From contig NZ_CP108938.1 of assembly GCF_036347135.1 (NCBI RefSeq), positions 9,920,001 through 9,984,000 on the forward strand: 64,000 nucleotides of DNA, written 5' to 3'. The number at the start of each line of letters is the position of its first letter. The stretch's first letter is position 1. The stretch is from Streptomyces sp. NBC_00775 (GTDB lineage Bacteria > Actinomycetota > Actinomycetes > Streptomycetales > Streptomycetaceae). The notes beneath the pieces are model-generated. The model saw only the letters and a program-made list of their open reading frames with translations, was not told the origin of the DNA and ran no database searches. This document shows positions 21,365 to 29,948 of the stretch, piece by piece. The translations under genes and the position numbers were made by a program.

Positions 21365-23335
21365 TCAGGGCGTCGAGGCCGTCGCCGACGAGTCGGGATG
21401 CGGACCGTATGCCGTCATGAAGCGGTCGCGGAAGGTGTCCATGCGCCACTCCGGCGCGTCCTTGGCGGGCTTGAGACCGTCCGTCCAGCCCCAGTCGGAA
21501 ATCCTGTCCAGCACCTTCTGGTCGTGCGCGACGATCGTGATGGGCACGTCCCGGCTCGTGCTGCCGGCGGTGACGGTCGGAACGGGCTGGTGGTCGCCCA
21601 GGAAGACGAGCACCGTGTTCTCGTCGCCGTACTTCTCGACGTACTCGGTGAGGCTGTGCAGCGAGTACTCGATGGCGCGCCGGTACTCGGTGCGCACGCT
21701 CTCCGGGTTCTTCCAGACCTGCTTGGGGTCCTTGCCCTCCTTCTTGATCTGGTCGAAGACCGAGCCGTCGCCGAGGTCGTTCCAGTCGATCATGTGGGCG
21801 ATGGGCGCCCAGGGGTTGTGGCTGGAGGCCAGGATGATCTCGGCCATCATCGGCTTGTGGTCCTTCTTGCCGTGTTCCAGGCGTTCGAAGGCCTCCAGGC
21901 TGAACTGGTCGGGCACCGGCGTCCAGCTGAAGTACGGGCCGTTGTAGCCGAGGTGCTCGGAGTCGTAGATGTGGTCGAGGCCGAAGAACTTGCCCTCCGG
22001 CCAGGCCCGGCGGACACCCGGCACGATGCCGACCGTGCGCCAGGCACCGGTCTTCTGGAAGTAGCTGGTGAGCGTGGAGCGGTCGCTGGTGGTGAGACTC
22101 CGGTAGCGCTGCTGGTTCTTGATCCACAGGCCGGACAGGAAGGTGGAGTGGGCCAGCCAGCTCCCGGCGCCCGTGACAGGGGAGCGCAGCCAGGCGCTGC
22201 GCGAGGAGAACCCGGCCGCCTTCAGCGAACTGGTCCCCTCCGAGAGAACCGAGTCGATCTGCTCGGACATCGCCGGGTCGTCGATCGCCGTACGGCCGTA
22301 ACTCTCGATGAAGGTGAACAGGACGTCCTTGCCGCGCAGTCCGGTCAGCAACTGGTCGGGCGGGGTGTCGGCGAAGGCGTCGACGGCGGCCTCCTTGGCG
22401 AACACCTTCCCGTCGCGCAGGCCCGCCTGCACCTGGTGCACCCGGTTCTGGACGAGCTCGGCGTTGATCTGCGAGGCCACCGGTACGTCGGTGAACTGCA
22501 CGCCGACCGTCACACAGGTGATCCAGGCGGTGCCGAGGACCAGCGTGGTCCGGGTGGCGACGGGCCGGTGGCGGACCATGAGGTCGGTCAGCCGCACGAC
22601 CGCGAGGGTGATGAGGACGAGCAGGGCGATGACGAGCGCGATGACCGCGATCACGGCGATCACCTCGCCGGTCCGGCCGAACGACTCCTTCACCCACTCC
22701 GCGGCGTCGTCCAGCAGGATCCAGTCCAGCACCAGGTCGAACGGCCGGGCCAGCACCGAGTAGAAGCCCATGTCGACGAACTTCAGGATGGTCAGCAGGC
22801 CGAGCAGCACACCGACGACGACCGCCGTGATCCGCCGCGGCTTCGGCGGCAGCGCCAACAGCAGGGCGGCGAGGAGGACTCCCTCCGCCGGGATGCGGAG
22901 GAAGGCGTCGAAGGAGAGGCGGTCGAGCTGGTTCGGCACGAGGAGGGCGAAGAGCACCAGGGCACCGGCGAGGACCGAGGTCCCGACGGTCACGACCCGT
23001 GCGGCACGCGGGTACTTGACCCGCCAGCCCCACCAGCCTCGCCGCCCACCACCGGCGCCGGCTATGTCAGAGGTGTCGCCGCCCTCATCCGCATCCGCAT
23101 CGGCCTCCGCGCCCGGATCGGCCTCTTCATCCGCGTCGGTCTCCGCAAGCGTGTCGGCTTCCGCGTCCGCCTTCGCACTTCCAGGCGTGTCGATATCCGC
23201 ATCCGTTGGCGTATCAGCTTCCGCAGCTGTGTCGGTATCCGCGTCCGCGGTCGTTGCGGCAGCCGTGTCGGCGTCCGAATGCGGCTCCGTCTCCGGTTGT
23301 TCCGGTAGTTGACGAGAGCGCGTGAAGTGCGACAC
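21365..23335 (-). CDS. LTA-synthase-like / sulfatase-fold membrane enzyme with acidic N-terminal tail
   Basis: 656 residues. Residues of about 15-95 form a low-complexity Ala/Asp/Glu tail made of AD-rich repeats. Four to five membrane spans follow (VVTVGTSVLAGALVLFALLV and others). Then comes an extracellular alkaline-phosphatase-superfamily domain with FTFIESYGRTA (nucleophile Thr region), WLRSPVTGAGSW and the metal-binding FLGDHQPVP near the C-terminus. The plan is that of LtaS-type polyglycerolphosphate or sulfatase-like transferases acting on envelope polymers or lipids; the exact substrate is not determined. The GTG at 23335 is preceded by GGAAGGA at 8 nt, better than any upstream start. 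Confidence 0.85.
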   Translation of the reverse strand: MSHFTRSRQLPEQPETEPHSDADTAAATTADADTDTAAEADTPTDADIDTPGSAKADAEADTLAETDADEEADPGAEADADADEGGDTSDIAGAGGGRRGWWGWRVKYPRAARVVTVGTSVLAGALVLFALLVPNQLDRLSFDAFLRIPAEGVLLAALLLALPPKPRRITAVVVGVLLGLLTILKFVDMGFYSVLARPFDLVLDWILLDDAAEWVKESFGRTGEVIAVIAVIALVIALLVLITLAVVRLTDLMVRHRPVATRTTLVLGTAWITCVTVGVQFTDVPVASQINAELVQNRVHQVQAGLRDGKVFAKEAAVDAFADTPPDQLLTGLRGKDVLFTFIESYGRTAIDDPAMSEQIDSVLSEGTSSLKAAGFSSRSAWLRSPVTGAGSWLAHSTFLSGLWIKNQQRYRSLTTSDRSTLTSYFQKTGAWRTVGIVPGVRRAWPEGKFFGLDHIYDSEHLGYNGPYFSWTPVPDQFSLEAFERLEHGKKDHKPMMAEIILASSHNPWAPIAHMIDWNDLGDGSVFDQIKKEGKDPKQVWKNPESVRTEYRRAIEYSLHSLTEYVEKYGDENTVLVFLGDHQPVPTVTAGSTSRDVPITIVAHDQKVLDRISDWGWTDGLKPAKDAPEWRMDTFRDRFMTAYGPHPDSSATASTP

Positions 23336-23716
23336 GCCGATGGTCCTTCCGTGCGAAGCCCCGTGCTGACACCGCGGACACGCCCCGGGGCAGGGCGGCG
23401 GCGTCATCATCCGTACGGTCGGCCTTCGCCTCCCGTTCAACCGGGAAGGTCAACAGCGCGCAAAGAGTACGCCGCAGGATGGGCGCCCGGGTCAGTCGGC
23501 TGCGTTCGCCGCGACCGACCTGGCCCACCGATAGTCCGCCTTGCCGCTCGGCGAGCGCTGAATGGTGTCCGACTGGCGTTGACTCGGCGGGCCCGGCCGA
23601 CGCCGCAGAAACTCGTCCTGCGCGCGATGTGCGTCGACAAGGGGCCCTGTCCGCACGGTGGTTGCTAGCCTTGAGTACGCGCCCGGAGGCCCCGGGCCGA
23701 GGCTTTCGGGGGGAAC
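23336..23716. other. Intergenic region holding the island's left boundary
   Basis: 381 bp without a complete gene. It contains, in order, the upstream region of the LTA-synthase-like gene, the orphan acyl-CoA synthetase tail at 23492-23571, and about 145 bp leading to the first island gene. No convincing -35/-10 pair was found for the island operon; TAGCCT at 23667-23672 is the only -10-like hexamer noted. Confidence 0.6.
23492..23571 (-). pseudogene. Orphan 3' end of an acyl-CoA synthetase gene (left direct repeat)
   Basis: On the minus strand these bases encode IQRSPSGKADYRWARSVAA plus a few residues and a stop, in the same frame as the C-terminus of the intact acyl-CoA synthetase ending at 29869. 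The two 80-bp copies (23492-23571 and 29869-29948) differ at about 11 positions by hand alignment and share an identical 23-bp run (23532-23554 and 29909-29931). Several differences are synonymous. Homology stops abruptly at the right edge, so only the tail exists. It is read here as the displaced original 3' end, or one att-like flank, of the inserted segment. Confidence 0.8.
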
Positions 23717-23938
23717 ATGAAGCCTCGTCTGATGCTCGAATCCTGGAACCGGCACGGTCTCGGCGTCGGTCGGCCGCGGATGGAGAGAGCTATCCGGTCC
23801 GGCCATCTCTCCACGCCGCCCGTCACCAGACCCGTGGGCTCGGACAGCGTCCGGGTGCGCCCCGAGGTTCAGTGCCTCGCGCAGCCCACGGCCGCGGGTC
23901 CCGTGGTCGAGGCGATCGAGACGGCCACCCGACGATGA
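23717..23938 (+). CDS. Small unknown protein, first gene of the conflict-system operon
   Basis: 73 residues, basic N-terminal half, no recognised domain, no signal or membrane segment, and no FxSxx C-terminus, so it is not an FxsA-type precursor peptide. Evidence that it is real: a strong ribosome site (GGGGGGAAC immediately before ATG) and a four-base ATGA overlap with the next gene, indicating translational coupling. Related systems often carry a small constant component near the effector genes, but I cannot assign this protein to any such family. Confidence 0.6.
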   Translation: MKPRLMLESWNRHGLGVGRPRMERAIRSGHLSTPPVTRPVGSDSVRVRPEVQCLAQPTAAGPVVEAIETATRR

Positions 23939-25992
23939 AGACACCGACTCCCCGCCGACATGTCCTCGTCGTCGCGCCGCAGTGCCTGGATCTGGGACCG
24001 CTCGACGAACTGGATGAGGTGGCGGAGTCCTTGCACGGGTTGCTCGTGGACCAGAGGCGGGGGGCGTGCCGGGAGAGTTCTGGCAGCGAACCCTCACTTC
24101 TGTACGGTCCGTCCCTTCGCCCGGTACAGATCGAGACCGCGATCCGGGGTGCGGCGGAGCGGGCCGGGCGGGCGGGGGCCGTGCTCGTCCTCGTCCTGCT
24201 CGGGTACGGCATCACGCCCGGCCGCGACTCCCCCCTCTACCTGATGGCGGGCAACTCCCAGGCCGACAAGATCGATACCGCGGTGAACGTCGGCGCACTG
24301 CTGACCCAGGTGCTGAGAACACCGGGACTTCCCGGAGTGTTCGCCCTCGTCAACACCTGTCGACCCGACGGCGCGGGCCCAGGCCCCGGAGGGACGGACG
24401 GCGGGGTCTGCAAGGGTTCGGCCCGACTCTCCATGATCATGTGCGAGGGGGTCGCGTGGAAGGCCTCCCCGCTGACCTTCTCCAAGACTGTCGTCCACTT
24501 GCTCACGGAGGGCATCGTCGGAGCGGGCGAGTTCCTGCGCTCCGATGCCGTGGTCGGTGCCGTATGCAATGCGCTGCCCAGGACGGTCCCGCACGAGGTG
24601 GAGCACGTCGGTACCCAGGGGTGCGAGCGGCTCTGGCTGGCGCGCAACGCGAGCCGTCCGCCGCGGTCCGTATCGGTGCTGGGGCCCGTGGCGACCGAGT
24701 CGCTGGATCAGGCACTGGCCCCCTTGGGGTGCTCGGCGCTGCTGACGACGGCGGTCACCGGCGCCGAGGCGCTGGAGGGGTTGCTGGACATCCTGCCGGA
24801 GCGCTCGTCGGGCCTCGGGTTCGAGCTGGACTGGTGCCTGGGCGTCGTACGCGGGCTGCTGGACTGCCTGTGCACCATCAAGCTGCTGACCACCTCCTGG
24901 CCGGGGCAGCGGCTGACCTCCGAGCGGCTGCAGAGAGCCCTGTGGGCCGCAGCGGGCCGATCCGCGGAACGGCTCCCGGAGACCTCCGGGAGCGCGCTGC
25001 TCAGGGATGCGGTCGAGTTCCTGCGCCTGCGTGTCCCGTCCGTCGATCCGGGTGCCAGGGGGATGAGTGCCGCCCCTCTGGCGGACTTCGTCGCGACACT
25101 CGCCGTCGAGGACCAACTGTCCAAGGACTGTGCCGAGTTGACCGCCTGGGCGGACGAGGTGGGCGCCGTCGAACTCGGTGATGCCTTCGAGCGGGTGGAG
25201 CGCAGAAGCGCCGGGATGAGGCTTCGGCTCGTCGTCAGCCTGGGGGCGGCTGTCGCGGACGAATGGCCCGAGACCCTCGACGCGTGGCTGCTGGACCACG
25301 GGGAGATGCACACGCACCAGGAGTTCGACTGTCTGCCCAGCCAGGCAGGGGTCGAGGAGCGCCTGGCGGACGTGGTGGACTGGGCGTCCACGCAGGCGAG
25401 GAAGCTCGGCGTAGAGCTCCGGCGGGTCGAGATCGCCGCTTCCGCGGGGCTGCTGCTGCGGTGGCGGCCCGAGGAGACCGACTACGGGGAGCGGTTGGGC
25501 GACTGGCACGATGTCGTACTGCGCTGGAGCGAGCGCATCTGTCCGCCGTCCCACCTGCGATGGATCAACCCTCGTGCCAGACGTCAACTGGCCAAGATGA
25601 GCGGGTGTGAAGCGGGACACGCGCCCGTCGACTGGTTCGGCGCACGGGAGACGGAACGGGCCGAGGAACTCAGAAAGAGGCTGGGGCGCGGGCCGTACGC
25701 GCGGGCGGTCGCTCTGAAACACCGGCCCCAGAGGTTCGAGCAGATCATGGAGCTGCTGCTCGCGTACGCCCCGATCGTGCTCTGGCCGGGGGCCGAGGGC
25801 TGTGTTCCGGACCAGTTCAAGGAGAGCCTCGACCGGTTCTGGCATCTCCTTCCCGACGAGTTCAGCGAGGCCTACCGCCGTAGCCGGGAAGAGGGGACGC
25901 GGGCCGAACTCGACGGCTGGGAGCACCTGGCCCAATGGCGGACGGTCTGGCACGACGACGAATGGCTCGACTTCTGCGACTGGTTCGCGTAG
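23935..25992 (+). CDS. Caspase-like / VMAP-C domain protein of a vWA-MoxR-associated conflict system
   Basis: 685 residues. The N-terminal part resembles a caspase-fold peptidase: LVLVLLGYGITPG (83-96) followed by LYLMAG corresponds to the usual GHG strand, and GVFALVNTCRPDG (134-146) to the catalytic-Cys strand. Cys142 is kept, but the His position is Tyr91 (GYG instead of GHG), so peptidase activity is doubtful. After a helical middle, the C-terminal third (about 425-680: RRVEIAASAGLLLRW, GPYARAVALKHRP, YAPIVLWP) fits the VMAP-C module that links effectors to MoxR and vWA partners. The ATG overlaps the preceding stop; a GAGGGGGAG-led AAA gene follows. Confidence 0.7.
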   Translation: MKTPTPRRHVLVVAPQCLDLGPLDELDEVAESLHGLLVDQRRGACRESSGSEPSLLYGPSLRPVQIETAIRGAAERAGRAGAVLVLVLLGYGITPGRDSPLYLMAGNSQADKIDTAVNVGALLTQVLRTPGLPGVFALVNTCRPDGAGPGPGGTDGGVCKGSARLSMIMCEGVAWKASPLTFSKTVVHLLTEGIVGAGEFLRSDAVVGAVCNALPRTVPHEVEHVGTQGCERLWLARNASRPPRSVSVLGPVATESLDQALAPLGCSALLTTAVTGAEALEGLLDILPERSSGLGFELDWCLGVVRGLLDCLCTIKLLTTSWPGQRLTSERLQRALWAAAGRSAERLPETSGSALLRDAVEFLRLRVPSVDPGARGMSAAPLADFVATLAVEDQLSKDCAELTAWADEVGAVELGDAFERVERRSAGMRLRLVVSLGAAVADEWPETLDAWLLDHGEMHTHQEFDCLPSQAGVEERLADVVDWASTQARKLGVELRRVEIAASAGLLLRWRPEETDYGERLGDWHDVVLRWSERICPPSHLRWINPRARRQLAKMSGCEAGHAPVDWFGARETERAEELRKRLGRGPYARAVALKHRPQRFEQIMELLLAYAPIVLWPGAEGCVPDQFKESLDRFWHLLPDEFSEAYRRSREEGTRAELDGWEHLAQWRTVWHDDEWLDFCDWFA

Positions 25993-26018
25993 TCCACTAG
26001 CGAGGGGGAGAACTCCGA

Positions 26019-26969
26019 ATGACCTGGCAGCCCTTCTACGTCGGGGACGGCACGCCCCGGGATGTGGATCTCGGCGATCCGCCTCCCTGGCGCAGCTTCC
26101 CCCGGCAGGCTCTCCACCAGCAGTTTCGACCGCCGCCCGGCCTGGTCAAGGCCGTCAATGCCGCGCTCGTGCTGCGCCGGCCGCTGCTGCTCACCGGGGC
26201 GGCGGGCTCGGGCAAGTCCACGGTGGTCGAGCAGGTGGCGGCGGAGCTCAAGCTCGGCGACGTACTGCGCTGGCACATCACCTCGGGCAGCACGCTCAAG
26301 GAAGCGTTGTACCGGTACGACGCCCTGGGGCGCATTCACGCGCAACGTCTCGGCGGCGCGGATGACATCGCACCGTTCCTGCAGCTGGGCCCGCTGGGTA
26401 CGGCTCTGCTGCCCGTCCAGCATCCGCGAGCCCTGCTGATCGACGAGATCGACAAGAGTGACCTGGACCTGCCTAGCGATCTCCTCGATGTACTGGAGCG
26501 GGGTGAGTTCGAGATCCCCGAACTCACCCGGTACAGCACCGGCAACCTCCAGGCCGCCGTAGAGGTGCGCGAGTGGGGCAGTGACCCGCGCGATCCCGTT
26601 CTCAGTCCCATCAAGGGGGGATTCGTGCAATGCGACAGCTTCCCCTTCATCGTGATGACGAGCAATGGTGAACGCGACTTTCCGGCCGCCTTCCTGCGGC
26701 GCTGCATCCGGTTCACCATGCCGAAGCCCTCGGTCGACGAACTGCGCAGGGTGGTGGAGGCACACCTGCGGATCGGCACGGGCACGAAACGGGCCACGGC
26801 GGCCGACACGCTGATCGAGGACTTCCACCAGCGCCTCACGGCGGGCGAGAGCCTGGCCATCGACCAACTGCTGAACGCCGTCCACCTGTTGATCGGCAGC
26901 GGCACCCTCGCAGGGGCGGAGAAGCGCGAAGTCATGGACCTCGTCCTGCGCGAGCTGTCCCGTGCCTGA
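26019..26969 (+). CDS. MoxR-type AAA+ ATPase
   Basis: 316 residues. Single AAA+ module: Walker A GAAGSGKS (60-67), Walker B ALLIDEIDKSD (138-148), sensor 1 IVMTSNGERD, and arginine-finger region FLRRC (225-229). MoxR-family ATPases work with a von Willebrand factor A protein, as the next gene supplies. In ternary vWA-MoxR-VMAP systems the ATPase is thought to remodel or gate the effector complex. Ribosome site GAGGGGGAG sits 8 nt before the ATG. Its last 8 bases overlap the downstream GTG start, so these two proteins are probably made in fixed ratio. Confidence 0.88.
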   Translation: MTWQPFYVGDGTPRDVDLGDPPPWRSFPRQALHQQFRPPPGLVKAVNAALVLRRPLLLTGAAGSGKSTVVEQVAAELKLGDVLRWHITSGSTLKEALYRYDALGRIHAQRLGGADDIAPFLQLGPLGTALLPVQHPRALLIDEIDKSDLDLPSDLLDVLERGEFEIPELTRYSTGNLQAAVEVREWGSDPRDPVLSPIKGGFVQCDSFPFIVMTSNGERDFPAAFLRRCIRFTMPKPSVDELRRVVEAHLRIGTGTKRATAADTLIEDFHQRLTAGESLAIDQLLNAVHLLIGSGTLAGAEKREVMDLVLRELSRA

Positions 26970-29829
26970 TCAGGGTCACCCGGACCAGGACGGGATCGCA
27001 CGGTCGGTGGCCGCGCTGAGCGGCCTGATGCCCGGGCTCGACGGCACGGCGCTGGCCGACCTGCTCTGGCTCGCCTCGCGCATGGACGGGGACAAGGAGG
27101 ACGAATCCGCCGCACGGTCGTCGCCGCAGTCGGCCGGCGCGCCACCCGCCGCCGATGCCGCGACGCGGGACGTGGCTCCGCCTCCCACCAGTACGGAACG
27201 AGCGCTGCATGAACGGCTCGGCGGAGCGAACTCGCGGGTCCGGGGCGACCCGGTGGCGACAGCGCGCGCCTCCGGCCTGCCGTCGCCGCTGGAGGTGACC
27301 CGAGCCCTGCGGCCCTGGAAGCGTCGGTGGCGGCAGGGCCGCAGGCCGGCCCTGGACATCGACGCGACGGTCGACGACTACGCCCGCAGCGGCGAACTGC
27401 TCCCCGTGTTCACGCCCGCCCCCGAGCGATGGTTCGACCTCGTCCTGGTGGTCGACCGCTCTCTCGCGATGCAGGTGTGGCGGGAGAGCGTCGCCGACTT
27501 CACGGCCGTCCTGGACCGGCTGGGCGCGTTCCGGACACTCCAGGTGCGCAGTCTCGGGTTCGCGGCGGACGGCCGCCCCGAACTCCGCGACGGCCAGGGC
27601 AGGTTGATGAGCCCAGGTCAGCTGAAGTCCCCCGACGCCCGCCGGTTGCTGGTGACCGTGTCCGACTGCGCCTCACCGGGCTGGCACGAGGCTGCGGTGT
27701 GGCGGCAGTTGTACCAGTGGGCTGCGTCGACGCCCGTCGCCCTGCTCAATCCGCTGCCGACCAAGCTGTGGCGCAGAACAGGGCTGGATCTGCCGACCGT
27801 CCGGGTCTCGAACGGGGTCCCCGGCTCGGTCAATTCCCGGCTGGACTTCGACCGGCCACCGCTGCTGCCCCGGGAGGGGGACGACGAGAAGGAGGGCGAC
27901 TGGCTGCCCATTCCCGTGTTGTCTATGTCGCCCCATGCGCTGGACCGCTGGTCACGAACGCTCATGCGTACGGACCCCGAAGGCTGCGGCGCGGTGCTGG
28001 TGCCCCGCAAGGGACGGCCCGAGGGGAGTGCGCGCAGGCCCCAGGGTTCCGTGACCGCGGAGAGGTTCCTGCGCACGGCGTCGCCCCCGGCGGCACGGCT
28101 GGCGGTCCTGTGCTCCACCTTCGACCGTCTGAGCATGCGTCTGCTACACCTCATCCGTCAGGAACTCGTGCCCGAATCGACGGTGGCCGATGTCGCCGAA
28201 CTGCTCACCAGTGGACTCTTCTCACTCGATGCGGACGAGCTGGGCACGGTCGAACTGAGCCTTCCGGAAACCGCGCGGCGCCGGTTGAGGCAGGATCTCG
28301 CGGAGCACGACGTCTGGCGGATCCACCGGGGGCTGAGCCGCCGGATGGCGGCTCGGGAGAACCGGAGCGGACAACTGCTCGCGGTGGCACACGACCCGGA
28401 CGGCGGGGTCGGCCTTCCTGCGGAACTCCAGGAGTTCGGCAGCGCGTCCCTGCGGACGCTGGAGCTGCTGGGGTTGTCGGCGGAGGGCGGTGCGGGGTCC
28501 GGTCGACGGCGCCAGGAACCCGCGAAGTCCCGGTTGGTGGCCGCGACCGAGTCGACGCCGGACCGTCGGCCGTATTTCTTCCTGAGCTACGCCCACACGC
28601 CGGCCTGGGGGCCCGGCGGCGGCGATCCGGATCACTGGGTGCACGTCCTCTTCACGGATCTGTGCGACCACATCATGGCGCTCACGGACCTTCCGGCGGG
28701 CACGCCCGCGGGTTTCATGGACCAGGAGCTGCGCTCGGGGGAGGGGTGGCCGGAAAAGCTCAGTGAGAATCTGGCGAGCTGCCGGGTGTTCGTTCCGTTG
28801 TTGTCGCCGCGCTACTTCACGAGTGAGAGTTGCGGCCGGGAATGGTTCGCCTTCAACGAACGTGTTCTACAGGCGAGGACCGCAGGTGCCGGTTCGGTGT
28901 CGGCCTTCGTGCCCGCTCTGTGGACGCATGTAGAAGTCGCTCAACTCCCCGACTCCGTACGGCATATACATGTGGATCAGGCCGCGTTCGGTGCACGTTA
29001 CGCGGCCAACGGCATCTATGGTCTGATCAAGCTCAAACGGCTTCGCGACGAGTACGAGGAGGTGGTACTCGGACTGGCCCAGCGGATCGTGCAGGTGGCC
29101 CGGGAGTCGCCGCTGCCGCCCGGCCAGCCCCGCGACTACGCTCGTACGCCGGTTGCCTTCCGGCCGCGCAGCGAGGGCCCACGGTACATCCGTCTGACCG
29201 TGGTGGCGCCCACCCGGCACAGCATCCCCGAGCACCGCGACCCCCGGTCGTATGGCGAGGACGCAGAGGACTGGAATCCTTACCACGCGGCGTCGACGCG
29301 TCCGTTGGCCTCGCTCGCGGAGGACCTGATCCGGTCGCTCGACTACCGGGTCACCGTCTCCTCGTTCGATGACGACGAGATCGCTGACGAGACCCTCGAC
29401 GAGGCGGGCAGGGTGCCGACGCCCGAGATCCTCCTCATCGACCGGTGGGCGCTCACCGACGAGGAGCGGCGGCGCAGGCTCGCGGCGTTCGACGCGAGCG
29501 CCCGGCCCTGGGTCAGCGCGATCGTCCCCTGGAACCGGTCCGACATGCAGTGCCACGGCGAGGAGGGCCGCAAGCTGGCGGCGGACCTGGAGCGGACGCT
29601 GCCGTCGATCCTGGACCGGGGCCGGCGCACCGACTGCCAGCTCGCCGTCAACGGCGTACCCACCCTGAAGGCGTTCACGGACATCCTCCCGGCCGTCGTC
29701 GCGCACGTGACCCGGCAGTACCTCAAGCAATTGGGGGTGACCCCACCCTCAATGCCCCGCCCTCGTCTGCGGGGCCCCGCCCCCCAGTCGTACCCCGAGG
29801 CCGGACCCGACGGTGAAGAGGAAACCTGA
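26962..29829 (+). CDS. SAV_2336-type vWA protein fused to a TIR / FxsC-like C-terminal region
   Basis: 955 residues. The N-terminal SAV_2336-like region leads to a vWA-like domain (about 157-275) with MIDAS-type DRSLAM (Asp165, Ser167) and a later acidic position in VTVSDCASPGW. A helical middle follows. A TIR domain occupies about 537-712: YFFLSYAHTP start, GFMDQELRSGEGW, then LLSPRYFTSESCGREWFAF. There Glu627, in the CxxE position of the usual WCxxE, is the residue needed for NADase activity in active TIRs. The last 240 residues (YIRLTVVAPTRHSIPEHRDP onward) match the FxsC C-terminal type known from FxSxx-COOH RiPP clusters; no FxsA or FxsB gene is present. Starts at GTG inside the end of the ATPase gene. 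Confidence 0.8.
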   Translation: MPDQGHPDQDGIARSVAALSGLMPGLDGTALADLLWLASRMDGDKEDESAARSSPQSAGAPPAADAATRDVAPPPTSTERALHERLGGANSRVRGDPVATARASGLPSPLEVTRALRPWKRRWRQGRRPALDIDATVDDYARSGELLPVFTPAPERWFDLVLVVDRSLAMQVWRESVADFTAVLDRLGAFRTLQVRSLGFAADGRPELRDGQGRLMSPGQLKSPDARRLLVTVSDCASPGWHEAAVWRQLYQWAASTPVALLNPLPTKLWRRTGLDLPTVRVSNGVPGSVNSRLDFDRPPLLPREGDDEKEGDWLPIPVLSMSPHALDRWSRTLMRTDPEGCGAVLVPRKGRPEGSARRPQGSVTAERFLRTASPPAARLAVLCSTFDRLSMRLLHLIRQELVPESTVADVAELLTSGLFSLDADELGTVELSLPETARRRLRQDLAEHDVWRIHRGLSRRMAARENRSGQLLAVAHDPDGGVGLPAELQEFGSASLRTLELLGLSAEGGAGSGRRRQEPAKSRLVAATESTPDRRPYFFLSYAHTPAWGPGGGDPDHWVHVLFTDLCDHIMALTDLPAGTPAGFMDQELRSGEGWPEKLSENLASCRVFVPLLSPRYFTSESCGREWFAFNERVLQARTAGAGSVSAFVPALWTHVEVAQLPDSVRHIHVDQAAFGARYAANGIYGLIKLKRLRDEYEEVVLGLAQRIVQVARESPLPPGQPRDYARTPVAFRPRSEGPRYIRLTVVAPTRHSIPEHRDPRSYGEDAEDWNPYHAASTRPLASLAEDLIRSLDYRVTVSSFDDDEIADETLDEAGRVPTPEILLIDRWALTDEERRRRLAAFDASARPWVSAIVPWNRSDMQCHGEEGRKLAADLERTLPSILDRGRRTDCQLAVNGVPTLKAFTDILPAVVAHVTRQYLKQLGVTPPSMPRPRLRGPAPQSYPEAGPDGEEET

Positions 29830-29868: not shown

Positions 29869-29948
29869 TCAGTGCGCTGCCTCCGCGGCCACCGACCGCG
29901 CCCACCGGTAGTCCGCCTTGCCGCTCGGCGACCGCTGAATGGTCTCCG
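29869..29948. repeat. Right direct repeat (att-like), 3' end of the intact acyl-CoA synthetase gene
   Basis: Counterpart of 23492-23571, with the same order and spacing from the stop codon. The identical 23-bp run is 29909-29931, followed one mismatch later by 11 more identical bases. Confidence 0.75.

Follow-up and report, generated by a model that had tools for sequence, protein, structure and literature searches.

We suggest that positions 23717–29829 of the analysed window (a 64,000-nucleotide stretch of Streptomyces sp. NBC_00775, spanning 9.92–9.98 Mb of an 11.1-Mb contig) probably encode a VMAP-MoxR-vWA ternary system without a proteolytic arm, in which the core is maintained together with a TIR effector. 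In related loci, the VMAP-fused caspase and an alpha/beta-hydrolase gene make up a pair upstream of this core. The first-pass annotation had described a set of four linked genes, whose combination of a degenerate caspase, a small leader protein and TIR fused to the vWA partner might be a new variant. The locus, its ternary assignment and the degenerate caspase stand, whereas the leader protein and the novelty of the fusion do not; the hydrolase, and hence also its joint loss with the caspase, had been overlooked.

Gene layout and domain content

The locus consists of four ORFs of 73, 685, 316 and 955 aa on one strand (Table 1). The flanking genes, named by eye and without profiles, resemble those for 5-dehydro-4-deoxyglucarate dehydratase, an IclR-type regulator, a sulfatase and a ligase. 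Profile searches matched the 685-aa protein to VMAP-M2 (PF19965, 153 bits versus a cut-off of 27.7), the third ORF to AAA_5/MoxR-type ATPases, and the fourth to the SAV_2336 N-terminal region, TIR and both FxsC domains; for the 73-aa ORF they returned no family. The window protein gave no match to VMAP-C (PF20028), which was detected in 3 of 36 members of the full-length alignment at 37–40 bits (cut-off 27). The order VMAP, MoxR, vWA is that of VMAP ternary conflict systems and, with the VMAP-M2, MoxR and vWA profile matches, bears out the assignment proposed from the sequence alone.

Table 1. Features of the locus and its left edge, in window coordinates
Feature	Position	Strand	Remarks
Acyl-CoA/AMP-ligase-like gene, 80-bp relic of 3' end; left edge	23492..23571	-	86% identity to 3' end of intact ligase-like gene at 29869
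IclR-like regulator gene tail and following bases, second copy	23569..23597	+	29 bp, 90% to L006 8872-8900; intact gene ends 21275
Former hydrolase gene: upstream region and ribosome-binding site	23635..23716	+	23635-23734 is 85% identical to L006 8974-9071
Alpha/beta-hydrolase gene relic, ATGA overlap with VMAP gene	23717..23938	+	Start, first codons and tail of ~66 codons kept
VMAP protein, 685 aa	23935..25992	+	
Pseudo-caspase domain, residues 1-196	23935..24522	+	Tyr91 for His (24205-24207), Cys142 retained (24358-24360)
VMAP-M2 helical middle region, residues 197-418	24523..25188	+	Profile match
VMAP-C-like C-terminal domain, residues 419-685	25189..25989	+	
MoxR-type AAA+ ATPase, 316 aa; Walker A and B intact	26019..26969	+	
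vWA-TIR-FxsC-C protein, 955 aa, GTG start	26962..29829	+	
SAV_2336-type vWA region, residues 28-465	27043..28356	+	Profile match
TIR effector domain, residues 537-714; putative catalytic Glu627 in CGREW	28570..29103	+	
FxsC C-terminal domain, residues 744-937	29191..29772	+	Profile match

The MoxR protein carries the N-terminal motif PsWRxa as PPWRSF, and its counterpart of WxhapG, WQPFYVG, resembles the printed motif but is one residue longer, a form shared by 9 of 57 loci. Both Walker motifs and the TIR glutamate are intact in the window, and the latter is kept in 15/15 TIR loci (window counted); we take this residue, Glu627, to be the putative catalytic glutamate of a TIR NAD+ hydrolase. 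PADLOC assigned no family to the small ORF, VMAP or vWA proteins, and 11 weak families to MoxR (best mad8, E 1.6e-4). Structural matches to a model of the whole VMAP protein were dominated by the caspase part. Residues 9–127 match the EACC1-associated caspase family NF047832 weakly (20.8 bits versus a cut-off of 140), and the protein is not a member.

Several traits are shared with the VMAP ternary systems in the passages of Kaur et al. (2020, PMC7159879) that deal with them: the gene order, VMAP-M2, a PPWR-type motif in MoxR, a TIR effector C-terminal to vWA (a position held by variable effectors in these systems), a caspase-fold VMAP N-terminus and, in the relatives of the window, an alpha/beta-hydrolase gene before VMAP. 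In the caspase-type systems described there, the caspase is always accompanied by the hydrolase gene; the window differs from them in the lost caspase histidine and in a hydrolase reduced to a 73-codon relic.

The 73-codon ORF is the remnant of a hydrolase gene

The closest intact counterpart is found in Streptomyces albiflavescens (L006), at the equivalent chromosomal position, flanked by IclR-like and ligase-like genes, and with the same domains (vWA protein 74% and VMAP 72% identical, flanking genes 90–96%). It differs in having a 316-aa hydrolase with all motifs and an intact caspase (GHG/DTCH). This hydrolase starts with MKPRL and contains FVHGIGG, AHSLG, FWDRDD and VHPA. When aligned with it, the window DNA follows the upstream region, the start and the first codons, and resumes only in the final portion of the gene (951 nt versus 222 nt, an in-frame difference of 243 codons), so that the ORF comprises the start and tail of the hydrolase only and the nucleophile motif is gone. 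The supposed leader protein is thus not a component of the system but an alpha/beta-hydrolase gene with an in-frame deletion. A search with the 73-aa ORF (tblastn) gave a match directly 5' of VMAP in 40/45 loci, in all of which the matching frame is open for 253 to 797 codons upstream, and on these grounds a genuine leader was rejected; with the S. albiflavescens hydrolase as the query, a hydrolase was found at that place in 43/45 loci. The relic ORF is probably retained for no other role than that of a translated leader, coupled to VMAP through the ATGA overlap.

The S. albiflavescens hydrolase itself scores 22.6 bits against Pfam Abhydrolase_6, under the cut-off of 26.3. Its AlphaFold2 model (pLDDT 86, pTM 0.89) weakly resembles folds of the alpha/beta-hydrolase type: the best Foldseek match was the DDHD domain of Nir2 (E 4.5e-4), and the remaining matches, all at E >0.01, were mostly esterases, lipases and peptidases of such a fold.

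When the relic was used as the query in a database search restricted to proteins of 0.55–1.75 times its length, the matches were the relic itself and one further protein, P0079, of 73 aa, with 58/73 residues identical and the same junction. P0079 shares the size of its longest contig (5595 bp) with P0005, a VMAP protein known from database proteins only and 92% identical to that of the window. From the equal sizes we infer that both lie on one contig, and both losses are probably common to the window and the relative carrying P0005. A search for a sister of P0005, over 392 genomes of the genus and 296 relatives of G236, came no nearer than S. albiflavescens at 72% identity.

Caspase and hydrolase appear to be lost together

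The survey comprised 66 places, the window included; setting aside four duplicates in VMAP sequence, as well as L020 and L022, which lack the N-terminal part, leaves 59 distinct loci comparable with the window. In each of the 59, the caspase His and Cys are present together with the hydrolase Ser, Asp and His (putative catalytic residues, assigned from AHSLG-, WDRDD- and VHPA-type motifs). The window has neither the hydrolase motif set nor an intact caspase dyad, as Tyr91 replaces the histidine and Cys142 stays. The degenerate caspase noted earlier is therefore confirmed as a derived state. Among 75 VMAP proteins, the histidine is absent only from P0001 (that of the window) and P0005. Judging by these residues, both hydrolase and caspase of the window are expected to be inactive. 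Since both losses are confined to one clade, the paired loss is one evolutionary case.

Two other loci are incomplete in the same region. In Streptomyces bluensis (L022:10000-11518), VMAP lacks caspase and hydrolase and is cut near residue 206, with unrelated sequence before the cut; MoxR and vWA are present, and the VMAP remainder is 98% identical to the L027 VMAP. This locus was considered as a second paired loss and not counted, being explicable by one recent junction near residue 206, perhaps an assembly join. The reverse kind of loss is seen in Streptomyces sp. AA1529 (L049:9795-10708, in a 20.7-kb locus), where the hydrolase motifs are present, the VMAP match covers residues 8–241 only, and neither MoxR nor vWA was matched.

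Constraint on the remaining domains

Changed conserved columns were counted against five intact outgroups for the window and for S. albiflavescens. The respective counts were 21:8 in the hydrolase tail, 39:14 in the caspase, 27:14 in M2, 25:24 in VMAP-C, 20:17 in MoxR, 39:31 in vWA, 2:0 in TIR and 6:9 in FxsC-C. The window line thus has 2.6–2.8 times more changes than S. albiflavescens in the hydrolase tail and caspase, and about equal numbers in VMAP-C, MoxR and vWA. Fisher tests, several of which were made on columns that are not independent and some of which miss significance, gave p 0.0026 for tail and caspase versus the rest without M2, p 0.024 for caspase versus VMAP-C, and p 0.16 for M2 versus the rest.

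In the VMAP alignment, changes common to the window and P0005 number 25 in the caspase, 15 in M2 and 18 in VMAP-C, compared to 5, 3 and 12 common to P0006 and P0007. Window-only changes number 6, 4 and 0, and those of P0005 alone 3, 2 and 3, with no excess on the P0005 tip; at 4, 2 and 1 sites both differ. After its divergence from P0005, the window line accumulated 10 changes in 132 caspase columns (four where P0005 differs too) and one in 170 VMAP-C columns (there P0005 differs too). With the same dependence between columns and multiplicity of tests, p was 0.0014 for the window tip, 0.080 for caspase versus C after the split, 0.084 on the stem (0.032 for caspase plus M2 versus C) and 0.017 over all branches. 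Identity between the window and P0005 is 89.8% in the caspase, 90.5% in M2 and 94.8% in C, and is even in the control pair P0006-P0007 (89.1%, 86.9% and 88.4%).

Pairwise dN/dS values, rough as they come from a simple count method on GC-rich DNA, are 0.81 (tail), 0.39 (caspase), 0.32 (M2), 0.23 (C), 0.17 (MoxR), 0.26 (vWA), 0.17 (TIR) and 0.38 (FxsC-C) between the window and S. albiflavescens. Between the window and L090 they are 0.58 (tail), 0.39 (caspase), 0.40 (C) and 0.12 (TIR), compared to 0.20 (tail), 0.23 (caspase) and 0.36 (C) between S. albiflavescens and L090. MoxR, the vWA region, VMAP-C and TIR therefore combine intact motifs with ordinary constraint, and the ternary core, as far as can be read from its sequence, probably still works.

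The pseudo-caspase may still act in some way, because its dN/dS of 0.39 is far below 1 and like that of FxsC-C. This would suit a re-employment of the remains, with the pseudo-caspase now binding peptides or regulating in a dominant-negative way and the 73-aa ORF encoding a small regulator, and roles of this sort are proposed for inactive peptidases in the effector position in the relevant passages of Kaur et al. (PMC7159879). A full-length caspase is kept in P0005 and the ORF is still 73 aa long in P0079, but the open frame proves little, as stops are rare in DNA of 70% GC. Against L090, the caspase value is not above that of VMAP-C. We regard re-employment as unlikely, as the hydrolase tail is near neutral in both comparisons, the agreement of P0079 with the relic is below that of any VMAP domain between the window and P0005 (90–95%), and the database search found no further homologue of similar length.

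Alternatively, the whole system may be decaying, with hydrolase and caspase the first to go and the rest yet to break. That neighbouring genes show a deletion and the loss of an active site would fit this, as would the somewhat faster change of M2. We nevertheless find it improbable: none of the three downstream ORFs is shortened relative to S. albiflavescens, the rate of change in VMAP-C, MoxR, vWA and FxsC-C is similar to that seen there, VMAP-C is almost unchanged on the window tip, and a close vWA-TIR relative, P0081, is full length too (955 aa).

Distribution and the TIR half of the vWA protein

A search with the VMAP alignment yielded 45 loci, titled Streptomyces in 44 cases and Actinacidiphila in one, and matched two genomes of another family of the same order; 44 of the 392 sampled Streptomyces genomes match at E<=1e-3, weak and partial matches included. 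MoxR was matched in 43/45 loci and vWA in 42/45, the exceptions being L013 and L036, where the contig is short or ends, and L049, with a partial VMAP.

A TIR match was present in 14/61 distinct relative loci (one weak, L034), and public records name many of the vWA-TIR relatives 'TIR-like protein FxsC'. Kaur et al. (2020, PMC7159879), where they treat these components, describe several acquisitions of TIR domains by vWA proteins. The TIR-FxsC fusion to vWA is common and not an undescribed variant. The effector half of the window protein matches FxsC_Nterm and FxsC_Cterm, as in FxSxx-COOH systems, and differs from these in that the FxsC part is fused to vWA. When the window protein (P0003) is compared with P0081, the TIR region (residues 521–760) is far more diverged than the vWA half, with a TIR/vWA divergence ratio of 3.28 versus 0.31 to 1.41 in 15 other pairs. 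The TIR half would seem to have diverged or been exchanged faster than the vWA half, as expected of a live effector.

The left edge and other loci of the genome

Between 20457 and 23600, the system is preceded by the sulfatase-like gene (21365-23440, minus strand), the 80-bp ligase relic and the second copy of the IclR tail. The left edge in S. albiflavescens has neither the sulfatase-like gene nor the ligase relic. These remains fit a scenario in which the system inserted next to the end of a resident ligase gene, by homologous joining on the right side and illegitimate joining on the left. A recent mobile island bounded by 80-bp direct repeats was also considered and rejected, since S. albiflavescens carries the system in the corresponding place; the repeat is better explained as what such an insertion left behind. 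An empty-site search over eight regions found only one, G064, with both the regulator-like and the ligase-like flank; there, by eye, a transporter-like gene takes the place of the system.

Elsewhere in the genome, two more MoxR-vWA loci are found at ~7.40 Mb (L126) and ~3.53 Mb (L127). At ~10.84 Mb (L128:3327-8337), an alpha/beta-hydrolase gene overlaps that of a caspase-NTPase-WD40-like protein, with both sites intact by eye and no VMAP match within 18 kb. Such a pair could supply the lost activities in trans, but its hydrolase is only 33% identical to that of S. albiflavescens over the matched part, the architecture is different, and, as inferred in the part of Kaur et al. (PMC7159879) on such systems, every ternary system relies on partners of its own; we hold trans supply to be very improbable. 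The reading as a distinct variant of four genes, its small leader protein being genuine, could cite the ribosome-binding site, the ATGA overlap and the 73-aa homologue in one relative, but is hardly credible given the full-length hydrolase of relatives in the same position and the hydrolase start and tail retained in the ORF.

A possible mechanism and its implications

If the system has indeed kept its core and lost its proteolytic arm, as we favour, the roles known for the families suggest that VMAP-M/C would sense the invader, MoxR would use ATP hydrolysis to remodel the vWA protein, and the TIR fused to it, deployed by assembly, would cleave NAD+. Most likely, this deployment would need no release through VMAP proteolysis. 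Two models of firing have been put forward: the sections of Kaur et al. (PMC7159879) on VMAP systems suggest MoxR-driven rearrangement with proteolytic release of effectors, and a 2024 paper (PMC10907252) has a signal from the vWA sensor pass via MoxR to activate the VMAP N-terminal effector. Should the system of the window work, it would fit neither VMAP proteolysis nor a VMAP N-terminal effector as a necessary step, and a maintained core without the proteolytic arm speaks against VMAP proteolysis being indispensable. A bolder proposal, which we put forward tentatively and with some doubt, is that the ternary system of this clade is protease-independent, the hydrolase and caspase being one dispensable module and MoxR and vWA alone deploying TIR. 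In the literature searched, we found no caspase-type VMAP system described as having lost both dyad and hydrolase, although inactive VMAP caspases may be listed in the supplements of Kaur et al.

If true, protease independence would contradict both VMAP proteolysis as a required step of effector release and the VMAP peptidase as the terminal effector. The joint loss also lends evolutionary support to the conjecture that the caspase acts in a pair with the hydrolase. With peptidase and partner hydrolase apparently lost, and core and TIR under constraint, the window may serve as a natural knock-out that separates the two firing models, for which the intact sister locus of S. albiflavescens offers a ready comparison.
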